From Myxococcaceae bacterium (GTDB lineage: Bacteria; Myxococcota; Myxococcia; Myxococcales; Myxococcaceae), in assembly GCA_016793095.1 (NCBI GenBank), contig JAEUJQ010000052.1:1-64000 (forward strand): a stretch of 64,000 bases of DNA, read 5' to 3'. The notes beneath the pieces were generated by a model. That model was not told the origin of the DNA. It made no database searches and was given only the letters and a program-made list of their open reading frames with translations. Shown here piece after piece: positions 34,311-47,436 of the stretch (the first letter of the stretch is position 1; every line of letters starts with the position of its first letter). The position numbers and the translations under genes were made by a program.

Positions 34311-34413
34311 CGAGCTGCTCCACGCGGGCGCGCCGCGGCGCTTGACCCGGGTCGCTGGCAGGGGCATTGGCGCTCCCGTCACTCGCCCCCCGCCGTCTCG
34401 TCTGGAGCTGCTC

Positions 34414-36552
34414 ATGAAGCTGCGCACCCTCGCCTTGTCCGGTCTCGTGCTCGCCAGTCCCGCCTTCGCAGACGAAGGCATGTGGACCTTCAACAACTTC
34501 CCCTCGGCCGAGGTGAAGAAGAAGTACGGCTTCGAGCCGACGAAGGAGTGGCTCGATCAGGTGCGCCTCGCCTCCGTGCGCATCGCCGGCGGGTGCTCGG
34601 CGTCGCTGGTGTCCGCCGACGGCCTGGTGATGACCAACCACCACTGCGCCCGCACCTGCATCGAGAACCTCTCGGGGCTGCAGAAGAAGGACTTCAACAA
34701 GGACGGCTTCTTCGCGAAGACGCTCGCCGACGAGCCGAAGTGCCCGGCGATGGAGATGAACCAGCTCGTCGAGATCACCGACGTGACGAAGCGCGTGCAG
34801 GACGCCACGAAGGGTGTCGCCGACGACAAGTTCGCCGAGACGCAGAAGGCCGAGATCGCGAAGATCGAGAAGGAGTGCGCGACCAGCGACGAGTTCCGGT
34901 GTGACGTCGTCACGCTCTATCGGGGCGGCCGGTACGATCTCTACAAGTACCGCCGCTTCCAGGACGTGCGGCTCGTGATGGCACCCGAAGACGCGATCGC
35001 CTTCTTCGGCGGCGACCCCGACAACTTCATGTTCCCCCGGTACGATCTCGACATGACGTTCGTGCGCATCTACGGCACCGACGGCAAGCCGCTGAAGAAC
35101 GACACGCACTTCAAGTGGTCGGCGAGCGGCGCGAAGGAAGGCGATCTCACCTTCGTCTCGGGCAACCCCGGCGGCACGTCGCGCACGCTCACCGTCGCGC
35201 AGCTCGAAGACGATCGCGACTACCGCCTGCCGATGCGCCTGTTCCGGCTGAGCGAGCTGCGCGGCCTCGTCACCGAGTACCAGCTCCGCGGCCCCGAGCA
35301 GAAGCGCCACTCGAACGACACGCTCTTCTACGTCGAGAACGCCTTCAAGGCGCTCAAGGGTCGCCACGGCGCGCTCGCCGACGCGGCGTTCCTCGGCAAG
35401 CTCAAGGCGAACGAAGAGGACTTCAAGAAGAAGGTGAACGCCAACCCGAAGCTCAAGAAGGACTTCGGCAAGGTGTGGGACGAGATCGCCGCCATCACGA
35501 AGAAGAACGCGGCGATCCGCAAGGAGTACGGCGCGCTCGAGGGGGGCCCGTACTCCGACCTCTTCTCGAAGGCGCGCACGCTGCTGCGCTCCGCCGAGGA
35601 GTCGGGCAAGCCGAACGGCGAGCGCCTCAAGGAGTTCACCGACTCGCGCCTGCCGCAGCTGAAGGCGCAGCTGCTCTCGAACGCGCCCATCTACAAGGAG
35701 CTCGAGATCACCAAGCTCACCTGGTCCCTCACCAAGATCCGTGAAGACCTCGGCCCCGATCACCCGGTGGTGAAGAAGATGCTGGGCCTCAAGTCGCCGG
35801 CAGACGTCGCGAAGGCGCTCATCGACGGCACCAGGCTCGATGTGCTCGCCGCCCCCGAGCAGAAGGACCCGAAGACCGGCAAGCCCGTGCCGGCGAACGA
35901 CACCTTCAGCCGCACCGCCCTCTTCACCGGAGGCAAGGCCGCGGTGGACGCCTCGAAGGACCCGATGATCGAGTTCGCGCGCCGCTTCGACGCCGAGGCC
36001 CGCGCGATCCGCACCCGCTTCGAGAACGAGGTCGAGGGCCCGCTCAAGAAGCAGCAGGAGCTGCTCGCGAAGGCGCGCTTCGCCGTCTACGGCGAGAAGA
36101 TCTACCCCGACGCGACCTTCACGCTGCGGCTCTCGTTCGGCGCGGTGAAGGGCTACCAGGAGGACGGCCGGGAGGTGAAGCCGCTCACCACCATCGACGG
36201 CGCCTTCGCGCGCCACACCGGCGCCGACCCGTTCGCCCTGCCGAAGTCGTGGCTCGACGCGAAGCCGAAGCTCAACCTCGAGACGCCCTTCAACGTCGCC
36301 ACCACCAACGACATCATCGGCGGGAACTCAGGCTCCCCCATGGTGAACAAGGACCGCGAGGTGGTGGGCCTCATCTTCGACGGCAACATTCAGTCGCTGG
36401 GCGGAGACTACGGCTTCGACGAGAGCCAGAACCGGGCCGTGGCCGTGCACTCGGCGGCGATCCTCGAGGCGCTCGAGAAGATCTACGGCGCGCAGCGCAT
36501 CGTCGAGGAGCTCAAGGGCAAGGCGACGTCGAGCGGCGCCGGCTCGAAGTGA
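34414..36552 (+). CDS. S46 dipeptidyl-peptidase, DPP7 type
   Basis: A 712-residue exported serine exopeptidase that removes dipeptides from peptide N-termini in the periplasm. Signal peptide 1-19 (ending PAFA). The catalytic His lies in TNHHC (76-77) and the Ser in GGNSGSP (S639). Eighteen residues after the Ser, in FDGN, is Gly657; the matching position (673 in Porphyromonas enzymes) is Gly in DPP7 and Arg in DPP11, so preference for hydrophobic P1 is predicted rather than Asp/Glu. GGAG 6 nt before ATG 34414 supports this start. It likely feeds on proteins degraded by secreted proteases. Confidence 0.93.
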   Translation: MKLRTLALSGLVLASPAFADEGMWTFNNFPSAEVKKKYGFEPTKEWLDQVRLASVRIAGGCSASLVSADGLVMTNHHCARTCIENLSGLQKKDFNKDGFFAKTLADEPKCPAMEMNQLVEITDVTKRVQDATKGVADDKFAETQKAEIAKIEKECATSDEFRCDVVTLYRGGRYDLYKYRRFQDVRLVMAPEDAIAFFGGDPDNFMFPRYDLDMTFVRIYGTDGKPLKNDTHFKWSASGAKEGDLTFVSGNPGGTSRTLTVAQLEDDRDYRLPMRLFRLSELRGLVTEYQLRGPEQKRHSNDTLFYVENAFKALKGRHGALADAAFLGKLKANEEDFKKKVNANPKLKKDFGKVWDEIAAITKKNAAIRKEYGALEGGPYSDLFSKARTLLRSAEESGKPNGERLKEFTDSRLPQLKAQLLSNAPIYKELEITKLTWSLTKIREDLGPDHPVVKKMLGLKSPADVAKALIDGTRLDVLAAPEQKDPKTGKPVPANDTFSRTALFTGGKAAVDASKDPMIEFARRFDAEARAIRTRFENEVEGPLKKQQELLAKARFAVYGEKIYPDATFTLRLSFGAVKGYQEDGREVKPLTTIDGAFARHTGADPFALPKSWLDAKPKLNLETPFNVATTNDIIGGNSGSPMVNKDREVVGLIFDGNIQSLGGDYGFDESQNRAVAVHSAAILEALEKIYGAQRIVEELKGKATSSGAGSK

Positions 36553-38203: not shown

Positions 38204-39199
38204 TCACCCCGGAGAGGGCCAGCTCACCCTCGCGAGGCGCGGGAAGCGCTTCACCATCGCCTTGAGCCGCGCCAGCGCCTCGTTCGTCGTCGGGTAGCGA
38301 CAGGTGACGTCGAGGCGCAGCAGCCCCGTCGTCGGCAGCGACTGCAACATGAGCTCGACGTCGTGAATGACCGGATCGACGATCGGCGTGCGGAAGGTGA
38401 GGTGCAGCACCCGCCACTCGTCAGCGGGCTTGAGCTTCGCCTCGAGCTGCCGCCCCTTGAGCACCAGCGCGTCGGGCACGTCGGTGAGCGTCAGCAGGCG
38501 ATCGCGCACGGCGCCCAGGTTGGCCGCGAGCCGGTGGAACCGCAGCTCCATGGTGCGCACGCGCCCGAACACCGGCGCCGTCCACGCCCACTCGAGCTCG
38601 TCGACGTCGAAGCGCCAGACGTTGAGGGCCAGGTGGCGCAGATCGGGCAGCGCTCGGGCGCTCCGCAGCGCGTCGAGCTCGGCCGCCGACCAACTCTCTG
38701 CGTCGCCGGGCCCTTCGACGGCCACGGTGGTGAAGGGCAAGGAGCGATCGGCCGCGAAGACGAGCAGCACCCCCTGACGCGGCAGCCCGCTGACCTCGCG
38801 CACGGTGCGCAGGTGCGGTGAGAGGAGCTCGCGTGGCACCTCGTCGTCGCGGTTGAGCACCTCGATGGAGCGCACGGTGCCCCACGACGGCTCGTCCGCC
38901 AGCGTGCCATCGAGCGTGGCGCGGCAGGCGACGAGGAAGCCCTTCTCCCAGGTCTGCCCCCGGCTCGAGACGACGCGCGCCAGCGGCCCGAGGAATTGTT
39001 CGCGGTAGCGCTCGAGCAGGCGCTCGAGCTTGAGCTCGGCCTTGCGCGACCGCCTCGCCGCCATCTGCAGCGCGATGAACTCGCCGCGTGGATCGCCGAC
39101 CTCGATCAACACGTCGGCCAGCACCTGTCGGGCCCCGTCATCCGAGGGGTGCTCGTACACCGCGCGGAAGAGCTCGGCCGGATCCACGGCCCCGTGCAT
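38204..39199 (-). CDS. TIGR02996 repeat-companion domain protein
   Basis: A 331-residue protein. Residues 5-45 (PAELFRAVYEHPSDDGARQV then LADVLIEVGDPRGEFIALQ) are the TIGR02996 domain, common in myxobacteria and planctomycetes and usually leading leucine-rich-like repeats. The remainder has Leu-rich irregular repeats (LRHLALNVWRFD, VRTMELRFHRLA). No enzymatic motif. A related gene lies at 47437-48330. The ATG at 39199 directly precedes the domain. Confidence 0.75.
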   Translation of the reverse strand: MHGAVDPAELFRAVYEHPSDDGARQVLADVLIEVGDPRGEFIALQMAARRSRKAELKLERLLERYREQFLGPLARVVSSRGQTWEKGFLVACRATLDGTLADEPSWGTVRSIEVLNRDDEVPRELLSPHLRTVREVSGLPRQGVLLVFAADRSLPFTTVAVEGPGDAESWSAAELDALRSARALPDLRHLALNVWRFDVDELEWAWTAPVFGRVRTMELRFHRLAANLGAVRDRLLTLTDVPDALVLKGRQLEAKLKPADEWRVLHLTFRTPIVDPVIHDVELMLQSLPTTGLLRLDVTCRYPTTNEALARLKAMVKRFPRLARVSWPSPG

Positions 39200-39262
39200 A
39201 CGTCCCCGCCGGGCCGCTCGCCACCCGTTGCGCCGCCCCTCAGGGTGCGCGACAAACCCGGC

Positions 39263-39751
39263 ATGCTGCTCCCCGAGCTCCAGGTGCTGACCTCGAAGGA
39301 CGTGCCGCGCCAGACGGTGCTGGGCTGGCTCTCGACCCGGTACCCTTCCGCCCGGGTGCACGTCGGCGACGAGCAGCCGTCGGACTCGAAGTGGACGATC
39401 TGGCTCCGGATCGAGCCGAGCGGGCACAAGGACTGGCCGTGCGCCGTCACCCTCGCCTTCACGCAGGACGACACGCTGGTTGGCCGCTTCCCCGAGTTCG
39501 CGCTCGCCGCGCACCTCGGCGCGAGCGGCGTGGACTGCCTCGTGCCGCCGCGCGCGCTGGTGAAGAACCTGCCGAAGAAGGGCGGTTGGACCTTCGCGCT
39601 GCTGAGCGGCGCGTGGCACCTCGCCGACTTCCGCGGCGACGAGGCCGGCCCGCGCGGCTTCGACCCGGCCGCGGGCGCGCCGAAGCAGGTGGCGCTCGAC
39701 GTCGGCAAGCTCGAAGACAAGGCCATCGACTTCAAGGCCCTCTCGGCCTGA
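39263..39751 (+). CDS. Hypothetical cytoplasmic protein
   Basis: A 162-residue protein I do not recognise. It has no signal peptide or membrane segment, a Trp-rich first half (KWTIWLRIEPSGHKDWPC) and an alpha/beta look. Divergent from the TIGR02996 gene (starts 64 bp apart) and convergent with the UshA-like gene (17 bp). Frame and codon use look genuine; ATG 39263. Function unknown. Confidence 0.55.
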   Translation: MLLPELQVLTSKDVPRQTVLGWLSTRYPSARVHVGDEQPSDSKWTIWLRIEPSGHKDWPCAVTLAFTQDDTLVGRFPEFALAAHLGASGVDCLVPPRALVKNLPKKGGWTFALLSGAWHLADFRGDEAGPRGFDPAAGAPKQVALDVGKLEDKAIDFKALSA

Positions 39752-39768: not shown

Positions 39769-40839
39769 TCAGTGCAGGCCTGAGTAGGTGGGCTCGATCT
39801 CGAGCACCCTGGCCTTGAGCGCCTCGTCGTCCTTCACGTCGGTGCCCAGCAACACCCAGTCGAGCTGAAGCGTGCGCGCGCCCTGAACCGCCTTCACCTT
39901 CCTGGCCTGCTCGTCGCGCCGCGCCTTCATGTCCTTCCGCAGCGCAGCGAGGCTCTTCTTCCCCTCGGCGTCCACCGCGGCCTTGAGGCGACCGTCGAGT
40001 GTCGCGAGCTGGCGATCGAGGTGTTCGAGCAGCTCCCGGTCTCGCGCGGCCTCGTTCAGATCGGTGAAGCGGCCCGTGGGCGCGCCCAGGGTCAACGAGA
40101 GCTTGCCCACGGCCTGCCCGCGCTGGCCCGACGCCAGCAGCAGCACGTCCTTCACCGCCTGCGGCGGCACGGTGCCGCGGAACTCGCCTGACTGAATGAC
40201 GAGGTCGATCTTGCCGGACAGCTCGTTGGCGAGCGCCATCGCCTCTTCGTAGCCGGCGGCGCTCAGCAGCACCGTCACGTCACGCGGCGGCAGGCGCGCG
40301 AGCTCGGCCTTCAGCGCAGGGAGCGACGGGGCGCCCACGAGCCCCGGCGCACCGGGGACCTCACCCGTGCCCGAGGCGGCCAGGATCGCCACCTTCACCC
40401 CGTTTCGCTCGACGACGGTCGAGCGAGGGAAAGCCGCCTTGCCGTTCTGCTCGAGGTTCGTCGAGACGAGCTGCACCTTCGCCCGCTTCGCCTCGGCGGA
40501 GAGGAACTCGGCGCCGGCAGAGAGATCGCGAAAGCCCACCCCGAGCACCGCCGTCCGCAGCTCGCCCATGGCGCCCAGCACGAAGGCGGCGCGCCGCTTG
40601 TCCTCGTCAGACGCGCCCCCCAGCACGCGGAACAAGGCGTTCCCCGAGTCGAGGACGAGCACGGCGTTCCCGAGCGAAGTCAGCATCGTCTTGCGCCTGG
40701 CCAGACCGCCAGTCGGGTTCGCGCGTCACCCACAGGGGGCGACTTCGCCCCCGACGTCTCCCGTGTACGCGATGGTGAGGGACCTGGGCGCCGCGAGGAC
40801 AGGCAACGCCAGGAGCATCGAGAGCGAGAGGGCCTTCAC
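39769..40839 (-). CDS. UshA/5'-nucleotidase-like exported protein, candidate selenoprotein (UGA at codon 38)
   Basis: Read from GTG 40839 with the UGA at 40728-40726 as an amino acid, this is a 356-residue protein: signal peptide (about 1-16), then LTIAYTGDVGGEVAPCG-UGA-RANPTGGLARRK and AVLVLDSGNALF. The PCGC..NPxGGLARR pattern is known from UshA-like metallophosphoesterase relatives, where the UGA position is Cys. The metal-site motifs are degenerate (DxH is DVG, GD is GN, GNHE is missing), so phosphatase activity is doubtful. The frame is open on both sides of the UGA with a good ribosome site before GTG 40839, and a SECIS-like hairpin follows. If UGA is a true stop, this is a pseudogene, or translation begins at ATG 40686. 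It overlaps the CpoB-like gene's stop (GTGA). Confidence 0.7.
40697..40728 (-). promoter_or_regulatory. SECIS-like hairpin after in-frame UGA
   Basis: Counting the U of UGA (40728) as 1, bases 17-21 (CUGGC) pair perfectly with 28-32 (GCCAG), leaving the loop GGUCUG. In the E. coli fdhF element the loop GGUCU also occupies bases 22-26 after the UGA, so position and loop sequence coincide. Part of this sequence is forced by the coded GGLA motif, which weakens the case somewhat. Bacterial SECIS elements bind SelB to insert selenocysteine. Confidence 0.5.
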
Positions 40840-41654
40840 TTCTTGCCTCCCTTCGGGGCGGCGGGCGCCGGCTTCTTCTCGAGCTCGGCGAGGCGGGCCC
40901 TGGCGAGCTTCGCCTGCTCGGACTTCGCGTACGTCTTGAGGAGCTCGTTGAGCGCCAGCTTCGCCTCGTCGATCATCTTGAGCTCCTTGAAGCAATCGGC
41001 CGAGCGCAGGTACGCCTGCGGCGCTGCCTTCGACTTCGGGTGATCCTGAATCACCTTCCCGTACTCGTAGAGGGCCTCGCGGCACTTCGACTCGAGGAAG
41101 TGCACCTCGCCAAGCCCGAAGTGGGCCTCGCCGGCCAGCTCGTCGCGCGGCCACTTCTTGAGGAACTCGGCGTAGAGCTTCTTCGCGAGCTCGTTCTCGC
41201 CGGCCTTGGCCTTGTCGTCGGCCAGCTTGAGGAAGTCCTTCGGGTCGTCGGGCTTCTTGAGCTCGTCCTTCTTCGGCTCTTCAGGCTTCCCAGGCGTCGG
41301 CGCGGCGCCAGGGCTCTTCTCGGCGGCGGCGAGGCGGGCCTCGAGCTCGGTGATCTTGAACTGGTAGCTCTCCATCTGCCCGCGCAGGGTCGCCACGTCC
41401 TGGATCGCGCCGTCGACCTTCACGCCGATGTTCGCGCCGGTGGTGCGCGAGGCCTGATCGAGCTGCTCGAGCGCCGTCTTCAGCTGGGCGGTGGTGTCGT
41501 CGAGCTTGCCCTGCGTCTCGGCGAGCGCGCCCTTGAGCCTCTTGTTCTCGTCCGAGAGCTTGTCGACGCGGCTCTCGAGGAGCTGGCCGCGATCGGCGGG
41601 GAAGAAGCAGCCGGTGAGACCGAGGGCGAGGGGCAGCACGAGGAGGCGACGCAT
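40836..41654 (-). CDS. CpoB/YbgF-like coiled-coil TPR lipoprotein
   Basis: A 272-residue lipoprotein: lipobox LTGC (about residues 13-16), a long coiled coil (about 25-110), a Pro/Lys-rich spacer, and three TPRs (about 140-255; ELAKKLYAEFLKKWPRDELA, GEVHFLESKCREALYEYGKV and a third). This is the layout of CpoB (YbgF), which coordinates Tol-Pal constriction and peptidoglycan synthesis; a general outer-membrane lipoprotein is the alternative. It precedes and overlaps the UGA-containing gene by 4 bases. ATG 41654. Confidence 0.75.
   Translation of the reverse strand: MRRLLVLPLALGLTGCFFPADRGQLLESRVDKLSDENKRLKGALAETQGKLDDTTAQLKTALEQLDQASRTTGANIGVKVDGAIQDVATLRGQMESYQFKITELEARLAAAEKSPGAAPTPGKPEEPKKDELKKPDDPKDFLKLADDKAKAGENELAKKLYAEFLKKWPRDELAGEAHFGLGEVHFLESKCREALYEYGKVIQDHPKSKAAPQAYLRSADCFKELKMIDEAKLALNELLKTYAKSEQAKLARARLAELEKKPAPAAPKGGKK
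40846..40851 (-). promoter_or_regulatory. Ribosome binding site for the UGA-containing gene
   Basis: GGGAGG lies 6 nt before GTG 40839, inside the end of the CpoB-like gene. It is one of the best sites in the window and argues that translation begins upstream of the UGA rather than at ATG 40686. Confidence 0.6.
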
Positions 41655-43054: not shown

Positions 43055-46000
43055 TCAGCGGCGCCGACGGAGCAGCAGCGCGAACACGCCGAACACCGCC
43101 GTCAGCTCGGCGCCGGTCGAGCACCCACAGCCCTTCGGCAGCGGTCCCACGACAGGAGGCACTGCGAACAGCTCGGCGTCGCGGATGACGATCTGGACCC
43201 GCACAGGCACGGAGTCGATCTGCCCGTCGTTCGCCACCACGTCGACGAGCACCGTGCTGTCTTCGTTCACGTAGGGCGCCCGGAAGCGCAGCGTGTCCGA
43301 GTCGGCGCCCTCGAGCGCGAGGGCAGGCCCGCTGACCTGCGCCCAGCGGAAGCTCACCGGATCGTTCTGCGGATCGGTCGCGAGGGCGGTCACCGTCCCG
43401 CCGTTCCCTTCGACCACCTCGACGGTCATCGGCGCGAGCACCGTCGGAGCAGACTCCGCGTCGAGCACCGTCACGGTGAGGCGCTGCGGCATCGACTCCA
43501 GCGCTCCGTCGCTCGCGGCCACGTCGAAGACGAGCTCGGTCGTCAGGTCCACCGAGGGCGCCACGAACGATCCCATGTTCAGCTCGACGAGCGGCCCCTC
43601 GCGTTGCACGAAGACGAGAGAGACGGCGTCGCCGTCAGGATCCGTGCCTGTGCCGCTCAGCCTCACCACGTCGCCTTCACGCACACGCAGGTTCGTCACC
43701 GGAGCCAGCGTGGGCGCCCGGTTGCCGGAGCAGCGGTTCGGGTCGGGCGTCACGCTGGCGAACGGCAGGTTGCTGAGCCCGGTGAAGGCGAGGTCATCGA
43801 CCTCCCAGCCCTTGTTCGCTGCCGCGTCGTCGGAGCCGATGCGGAGCCGCAGCCGCACCGTCTGCCCTGCGTACTGTGTGCCCAGCTCGAGCTGCTCGGT
43901 GAGGAACGCCGGGTAGCCGGTGCTCTTGCCGACGTAGCCGCGACGACCGCGCAGCGGGTTCGACGTCTGCGCCGGGATCGCTCCGGTGTAGCCGGGCATC
44001 GCCGAGCCCCCGATGTCCACGTACGCGCCGCCCTCGGGCGCGAGCTCGATCACGGCGCCGTCGTAGAACGTGGTCGCGTCGGCCTCGAAGTCGAACCGAT
44101 GGCGGAACGAGATGCGGAAGGGCCCGCTGCCGACCTCCAGGGGCGGGGACACGAGCCACGTGTCAGCCGGAGAGGCCGGGTTGGGCCCGAACCACCAGTG
44201 CGAGGTCGGGCTGCTCTGCGCGATGCGCCAGTCGCTGCCGGTGTTGCCGTTGGGGTTGTGGCCGGTCGTCCAGCGCGACATCGGCGCCTCGACGTCGTCG
44301 CTGGCGCTGCCGGTGGGGTTGACGTTGCTGTTGAGGCGCGCGCGCAGCTCCTTGGTGACCGGCCCCGGCACCGCGAGCGAGGGGTCGTTCGCCGCCACGG
44401 TGATGACGACGCCCTGGAAGCCACGCACCCCGCGCAGGGCCACCGGCACGCTCACGGTCGCGGTGCCGAAGGGCTGCATGGCCGCCGCGTTCACGGTGAC
44501 TCCCTGCGGAAACGAGAGCCCCGTCGAGGCGCTCGACAGGGTGACCGTCGTGGCCATGAGCGGCCCGACGCCGACGTTCTTCAGCGTGACGTTCACCTTC
44601 CCCACCTCATCGGTGTCGAGGGTGCCGTCCATGTCGCAGCTCGTGATGGAGTCGTCGATGGTGACGTCGGTGATCGCGACGGCGTTGCCCACGACGAAGC
44701 TCTCGACCGCGGGCCGGTTGTCGGAGGCGTCGCGATCGGGCGCCTGGGCCTGCATGCCGAGCCCTCGTCGGGCGAAGGCCGCCCAGAACAGCGCGAAGTC
44801 CTGCGGATCACGGGCCACTGCTGCCGCGAGCAGGGCGTCGCGCGCCTCCACGAACGTCGGCATCAGGGGCGTCAGCTTGTAGGCCGCGACGAGGTACCTG
44901 AGCATTCGATCCTGCGCCTGCTCGAAGGTGAGCCGGGGCTGCGCGCGGAGCAGCTCGACATAGCACTCCCACAACATCGTGCCCCAGACCTCGCCCGTCG
45001 AGTGCACCTCGGCGTTGTACGAGCCATCGAGGCCGTAGGCGGTCGGCACCATCGGCAGGGGCACGCCCCGCTGGATGTGCTTGAAGGTGAGCCCGTTCTT
45101 CGTGAAGTCCACCGTGTAGGGGACCCGCCGGACGCCGTAGTAGTGGCCCTCGGCGTTCGTCGCCGAGGTGGTGTACCCGCCGACGGCCCACGTGCCCGTC
45201 CAGTTCGGGTTCGACGGCACGGTCGCGTCGGACTCGCGCACCATCATCAACAGCGCGTGGAAGTCGCTCCAGCCCTCACCCATGCCGACGGACTGGTACG
45301 ACGACAACCCGTTGCCGTCACCGATCAGCCGGTTCGAGATGTAGTGGCCCCACTCGTGGGCGATGATCGCGTTGTCCAGGGTGCCGTCGCGGCTGGTGGT
45401 CGCGTTGCGGAACAGCGTGACCTGGAGGGAAGGCGTGGTGGCGAGCGCGCTCTTGAGCGACGTGGCGGCCGTGCGCGTCAGCGACATCGCCGGAATGGTG
45501 GTGTTCGGCATCGGCGTTCCCACCAGCTCGGGCGGCCGCGTCGAGGTGACGTTGTCGCCGATGATCACGCCGACCGCGCCGTTCATCTGCGCGTTCTGGA
45601 CCTTCTGAACGAAGGTGCACAGCCCGCGATCGACGAGCGCGATCTTCCCGGCGACGCTCGCGACGAAGCCAGGCTGGCAGCCGTCGTTGACCGTCCCGCC
45701 GGCTCCTGACGGATCGCCGTCGTCCACGTACACGACCTCGGCGGTGACGTTGTAGGTCCGCGGGCCGAAGCCGGCGCCGTTGGTGCTCACGTTCGCGCCG
45801 TTCCAGGACAGGCGCTCGGTCTCGGAGCCGGTGAAGATGTACATCTGCATGCGCGGCCGCGCCCCGTCGCTCGGGGTCGACATGTTCGCGTTGTTCCGAC
45901 CCGAGTTGTCCTGCCCCTCGGCGTTGATCGGGTCGCCCTCGAGCCCGCCGCGCCCGTAGTTCGAGGTCTGCGCGTTGCCCGCCCGCTCGTCGAAGCCGCG

Positions 46001-47236
46001 GTCGTAGTACCAGTCGTGGAAGAAGTTGATGTCGTAGAAGAGCTGGGTGGCGGCCGCGAGGCGCTGCTCGGTGTTCACGTCAGGGTTCTGCGTCACGTCG
46101 TAGGTGCGATCGAAGAGCACCACGCCGGCGTCCGGGTCGCCGGTGGGCGTCGGCGCCAGATCGCCCTGGCCGAAGCCGTTCGGTCGCACCGCGTCGATGT
46201 ACGTGAAGGTGTTGTTGCCCTCGGTGCGGGTCGCGTTGGGCGGCAGCCACGGATCCATCGTCGAGATCGGCCCGTGCTCGCGCGTCACCAGCTCAGGGGT
46301 GACGAAGGGCGGCTGGAAGCCATTCGGCGCGCCCGCCGGATGAGGCGTCGGCGAGTTCCCCGCGGGGCCGTCGAAGGGCAGGCCCGGCCCGGTCGCCTCG
46401 GCCCACACCCGGAAGCCCGCCTCGGCGGTGAGGTTCTTCTCGTAGAGGATGGCGCCGTCGCGTCCCGACACGACGAACGAGAAGTACCTCGAGTCGAGCG
46501 CGCCCTCCGACACCTCGACCTCGACGTAGTAGCCGGGCTCGAGGCCGCCCGCGGTGGGGAACCAGACCCGACGCGCGCGCACGGGCGTCGGCTCGTCTGC
46601 CAACCGCCAGAGCTGGTAGCCGTCCTTCACCGTGAGCGGCACCAGCGCCGACGCCTCCACCCCGCGCCCCGAGACGGCCGTCACCGCGGCCGCGGCTGCC
46701 GTCGAGGGCGTGAGCGCCCACGGACCGAGGGGCTTCGTCGCCGGAGTGAGGTAGCCAGCGATCGCGACCGGCACGAACTGTGCCGTCATCGCCACCTTCA
46801 CTTCGTCGCGGAAGACGCGCACGCCCTGGACGTCCTGCTGGAACGTGGCGATCACCACGCCGTCGTCAGCGGGCGCATGGAGGTGAGCCAGCCGCGCCTC
46901 GGCCCATCGCACCCGATCACCGCGGTACAGCTCCGCGTGAGTGAAGAGCGTGCGGCGGGCGACCTGCTCCGCCGTCAGGCCCTGCGCTCGCGGCGTGCCG
47001 GTGCCCGATGCTGGCTGGGCCAACCACAGGAAGGTGGGGACGCCGAGGCGAGGCTCCTGCGACGACGCGAACGAGGCCTCCAGGGCAGCGCGACCGGTCG
47101 GAGTCAGTCCGTCTCCGCTCACCAGCTCGAGGCGCCTGGTGCCTTGCAGGAAGAGATCACGGCCCGGGGCCGCGACGGCGATGGACGACATGGACGACAC
47201 GAGGACGAGGCCCCAACCAGTCCGTGAGATGTGCAT
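43055..47236 (-). CDS. Secreted M36 (fungalysin-type) metalloprotease with MYXO-CTERM tail
   Basis: A 1,393-residue extracellular or surface zinc protease. Order: signal peptide (about 1-27), propeptide, peptidase M36 domain with HEWGH (627-631) and the third ligand Glu654 in [12 protein letters not shown]-type insert ([19 protein letters not shown]) precedes the active site. Downstream are a putative MAM/jelly-roll domain (about 1000-1200) and Ig-like/cadherin-like repeats ([26 protein letters not shown]). The last 30 residues, KGCGCSTG, a hydrophobic helix and RRRR, form a MYXO-CTERM signal, processed by myxosortases. ATG 47236 precedes the signal; the 200 bp to the divergent TIGR02996 gene are unusually AT-rich and should hold both promoters. 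Likely a predatory/nutritional exoenzyme. Confidence 0.9.
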
Positions 47237-47436
47237 GAGCGCTCCCTGAATGCCCGCGCCGGATAACGACATTCCACACCCGCCACAAGCCCATTCTCTC
47301 GTTATTTCATGTGGTTGCATGTTCGTTTCCTGTCGGGCGCGAAGTGGCAGCCGGACACGAATGTCACGGTGCAGTAGAGTCGGGACCCGAGAAAACCACG
47401 ACTTGCCTGCTCGGCTTCTCCACCCCGGACCCACCC

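Follow-up and report, generated by a model that had tools for sequence, protein, structure and literature searches.

The question raised by this locus is whether a UGA codon inside a long open frame in the window, i.e. the whole 64-kb stretch of DNA that was analysed, ends translation or is read as selenocysteine (Sec). The initial annotation proposed Sec as residue 38, and this reading is supported by the codon exchange at the site, covariation in the SECIS hairpin and the Sec machinery of the genome. The internal stop codon almost certainly encodes selenocysteine, because about 100 related myxobacteria keep both the UGA and the hairpin, and relatives that lack the machinery carry Cys.

The interrupted gene and its surroundings

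The UshA-like gene lies on the minus strand (39769..40839). Sequence and translation confirm the single frame described in the initial annotation, with 356 open codons from the GTG at 40839 down to 39769, interrupted only by the TGA at 40728-40726 (40726..40728, minus strand), which falls at residue 38 in the motif PC-G-U. The closing stop is the TGA at 39771-39769, and read through, the product would have 356 residues including Sec38. The GGGAGG ribosome binding site that had been noted before the start is present at 40851-40846 on the same strand. Residues 1-18, MKALSLSMLLALPVLAAP (40786..40839, minus strand), read as a likely signal peptide, so the UshA-like selenoprotein would be periplasmic or exported.

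The upstream gene (40836..41654, minus strand) encodes a YbgF/CpoB-like TPR lipoprotein (TPR_6, TolA_bind_tri), which scores 79.8 bits against tol_pal_ybgF in the profile search, below the cut-off of 90.1. Its stop overlaps the GTG start of the selenoprotein gene (GTGA), giving an operon, and it is a conserved partner that adjoins the selenoprotein gene in 59 loci. In the window there was no match to Rfam and no tRNA. The search for related loci rendered one relative only, and the genus of the source genome takes in an Archangiaceae metagenome assembly with 71% identity.

Other features of the window include overlapping frames on opposite strands at 38204-39751 (471 aa on the minus and 251 aa on the plus strand), where conservation in L024 suggests that both are real genes, shorter and divergent. 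An S46 peptidase is encoded at 34342-36552 on the plus strand (735 bits) and an M36 fungalysin-like peptidase with a PA domain at 43055-47434 on the minus strand. By eye, the C-terminal tail of the latter, GCGCSTGAE...RRRR, resembles a myxobacterial sorting signal.

The UGA codon in related genomes

Translation table 11 reads the TGA as a stop and a 305-aa open frame starts at ATG 40686, as would suit a pseudogene, or a short peptide after which translation starts anew at this ATG. However, the search of the phylum found exactly one in-frame TGA in the homologue in 97 of 195 genomes, several of them closed, and it stands at the UGA codon in all 65 such copies that were read. Alignment of 87 homologues gave TGA in 65, TGC in 21, TGT in one and no other codon, which bears out the Cys that had been expected at this site in UshA-like relatives. 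The random stops of a pseudogene are absent from these relatives; at precisely this position they show nothing but TGA or a Cys codon. Pairwise substitution rates show purifying selection downstream of the UGA in most ungapped close pairs, the gapped pairs L075/L076 and L092/L093 being left out of this result. Furthermore, reinitiation at ATG 40686 would leave a product with neither the signal peptide nor the invariant motifs CGC/CGU and GG; C36, G37, U/C38, G44 and G45 are invariant in an alignment of 38 members. With the hairpin conserved alongside, a true stop is very improbable. An error in sequencing or assembly is still less credible. It would need only one base change from TGC (or a misread TGG), but it would have to recur in frame in each of 97 genomes, several of which are closed, and in the copies read it would do so next to a SECIS.

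In a tree of 75 copies, seven Sec/Cys changes are needed, at least six of which are forced by well-supported branches. Leaky decoding of UGA exists in bacteria, and a near-cognate tRNA might therefore insert Trp or Cys here without any Sec machinery. Against this, the exchange is with Cys alone and a Trp codon was never found at the site among the 87 homologues read, the hairpin is conserved, the machinery co-occurs with the UGA, and syntenic copies have changed to TGC where the machinery is missing. Readthrough with another residue is thus highly unlikely, if slightly less so than a true stop.

The SECIS hairpin

The putative upper hairpin of a bacterial SECIS is found at 40697..40712 on the minus strand, where 40712-40708 pairs with 40701-40697 around the loop GGUCUG at 40707-40702. 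If the U of the UGA is numbered 1, bases 17-21 form a stem without mismatch with bases 28-32 and enclose the loop at 22-27, as the initial annotation had it, and RNA folding recovers the same hairpin, CUGGC[GGUCUG]GCCAG, with -13.9 kcal/mol for 45 nt. The SECIS of E. coli fdhF has GGUCU at bases 22-26 in this numbering. The window hairpin shares this loop sequence at the same bases but differs from fdhF in that a bulged U is not evident at base 17 and the stem sequence is unrelated. The two strands of the window contain 1519 TGA triplets, and the one at 40728-40726 alone is followed by such a 5-bp stem with a GGU loop. The 45-nt fold is within the limits of the published bSECIS model (PMC13188914), with a 6-nt loop that begins with G, a stem of 5-6 bp, a spacing of 18 nt between the UGA and the loop and an MFE below -7.5. 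With a covariance model of this type of SECIS, the window site was the only one above noise among the 150 of 13215 genome candidates that were scored.

The initial annotation cautioned that the coded GGLA motif itself favours such a hairpin, and the hairpin could be a by-product of coding GGLARR, since the peptide constrains the bases. The folding energy is unexceptional for the composition (z -0.34), so stability is no proof of function. The Cys copies answer this caveat: their peptide is almost unchanged, yet the hairpin is missing from most of them. A stem of at least 5 bp is found in 62 of 65 UGA copies compared with 2 of 22 Cys copies, and the loop codon GGU (GGT) in 63 of 65 compared with 1 of 22. 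In 43 distinct UGA sequences, pair counting shows 92% of the stem cells paired and 25 stem cells with a double change, where shuffles give 6.0 and slid versions 2 to 14. The 22 Cys sequences show no excess of double changes and hence no covariation. Neither the Fisher nor the shuffle figures take account of kinship. The UGA copies hold the stem through compensatory, paired changes, e.g. at one pair where U-A has become G-C and at the adjacent one where C-G has become U-A. In three of them (L038, L040 and L097) the stem is shifted by one base around the GGUCU loop as Ala becomes Pro. The evolutionary conservation is decisive, not the folding energy, and there is very little probability that the hairpin is a coding by-product.

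Sec machinery and its loss

The source genome (8.81 Mb, 98.65% complete) holds all four genes that the initial annotation had suggested looking for: selA (559 bits), selB (324 bits over the cut-off), selC (70.3 bits, anticodon UCA) and selD (380 bits). The selD gene has no internal UGA and the formate dehydrogenase alpha subunit (L111, G000:C63:99115-101142) is of the Cys form (CARVCHSPTG), so the usual Sec users need no Sec in this genome. Across the phylum, selA is over the cut-off in 94 of the 97 genomes that have a homologue with an in-frame TGA and in 56 of 98 others, a comparison uncorrected for kinship.

Four syntenic orthologues have TGC: L061 (G095), L037 (G110), L041 (G072) and L030 (G148). 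All four genomes lack part or all of the Sec machinery. In G095, which is near-closed (2 contigs, 100% complete), neither selA nor selB was found over the cut-off and there was no clear selC; its near relatives G096 and G098 have the UGA copy together with selA, selB and selC. In G110 and G072 selA and selB were not found, and in G148 both of these are present, whereas a clear selC is missing. Weak tRNA matches of 44-48 bits occur also in genomes with a clear selC (about 70 bits). The G095 orthologue keeps the stem and its loop is now GGCUUG, as if its SECIS were decaying.

Conversely, three incomplete assemblies have a UGA copy and no selA match. G068 (80% complete) has selB and selC, G143 (87%) gave no selA, selB or selC, and G011 (92%) has selC but selA and selB were not found. 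Assembly gaps are the likely cause of the missing selA in all three. In G011 the UGA copy (L108) pairs perfectly in the hairpin and carries a cytochrome region; with selA and selB not found in its genome, it reflects either the incomplete assembly or a real exception.

According to the mechanism proposed here, SelB would bind the hairpin, which begins 13 bases downstream of the UGA, and bring Sec-tRNA(Sec) to 40728-40726, so that Sec38 would be inserted in the PC-G-U motif and the readthrough product would be the exported 356-residue protein.

Protein family, fold and function

UshA-like selenoproteins with a CxU motif were reported in 2008 in a Global Ocean Sampling study (PMC2398784) and are listed in reviews from 2022 and 2026. 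The family corresponds to NCBIfam NF041198 (UshA_like_PCGU), a UshA-like (seleno)protein of COG0737 with CxU (PMC2398784, PMC13188914). A selenoprotein list from 2006 for Anaeromyxobacter does not name UshA, and the literature search brought up nothing specific on myxobacterial selenoproteins. The window protein matches NF041198 with 149.9 bits (E 8.9e-44, profile positions 20-339 of 519), under the curated cut-off of 275 bits. It has in common with that family the N-terminal UshA-like domain, the PCG-U/C motif, the GG-L motif and the Sec/Cys exchange, but differs in its link to a YbgF-like gene and in lacking the C-terminal cytochrome c554 part (profile positions 340-519 approximately); the window protein gave no Pfam match. 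That cytochrome region is present in L100, L104, L108, L109 and L110, with L104 aligned to the profile end. A second related family, NF049981 (UshA-like (seleno)protein family 2), shares a related domain, but the window protein scores 35 bits against its cut-off of 140, and the family motif is listed as CxxU as opposed to CxU. The window protein is a short, cytochrome-free and probably periplasmic branch of the known UshA-like CxU family, linked to YbgF.

The source genome has a second UshA-like homologue, L023 (G000:C15:6231-6548 and beyond), in the Cys form PCGC with a multihaem cytochrome c554-like region. It scores 220 bits against NF041198, below the cut-off. The Cys at the site and the cytochrome part rule out a plain UshA, which had been considered for this gene.

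The structure model of the window protein (pLDDT 93.5) resembles 5'-nucleotidases and SoxB at a Z of about 30 and an rmsd of 2.2-2.7 over about 260 residues, and in these targets the match is confined to the N-terminal part. The metallophosphoesterase fold is thus shared with UshA and SoxB, and Asp28 is kept, by eye, at the first metal motif position. An active 5'-nucleotidase or SoxB-like hydrolase, with Sec as metal ligand or in a structural role, would agree with these likenesses. However, in the alignment to 2z1a (Thermus 5'-nucleotidase) the motifs GD, GNH, SH and GHSH are replaced by n, GerD, aa and qsgd, so most metal-ligand motifs are missing, as the alignment of family members also shows, and the C-terminal substrate-binding domain is absent as the protein stops at 356 residues. 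The cytochrome fusion in relatives also points to electron transfer, and the window protein, unlike UshA and SoxB, would carry Sec. Hydrolase activity, a rival to the function and not to the Sec reading, is therefore unlikely, though it deserves far more weight than any of the alternatives to Sec.

With the metal ligands mostly replaced, a redox use of Cys36-Gly-Sec38 would be likelier than hydrolysis. The motif and the lost ligands, from which this is judged, make a redox function of the Cys36-x-Sec38 pair reasonably probable. The protein would have kept the metallophosphoesterase fold, lost most metal ligands and the C-terminal domain, and most likely use the invariant pair for thiol/selenol redox chemistry in the periplasm, being made together with the YbgF-like periplasmic TPR protein.

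Conclusions

As judged from the sequences, the gene very probably encodes a genuine selenoprotein, an exported 356-residue protein with SECIS-directed Sec38, a likely redox role and a YbgF-like partner. It is a far more tentative idea, and on balance doubtful, that Sec in these myxobacteria serves mainly, perhaps solely, the cytochrome-free UshA-like protein, which together with the YbgF-like periplasmic protein would have turned what was once a metallophosphatase scaffold to a new selenol-thiol reaction.

The family itself was already known; new here are a branch spread across myxobacteria that has no cytochrome part and is linked to YbgF, and the history of Sec and Cys within this branch. 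The branch occurs in about half of the genomes searched in the phylum. The tested members fall under the cut-off of the curated model, and therefore risk being annotated as two fragments or as a pseudogene. The repeated exchange between Sec and Cys, accompanied by retention or loss of the SECIS, constitutes a natural experiment on the gain and loss of Sec, and the cytochrome-free form of the UshA-like protein may be better suited for biochemistry.
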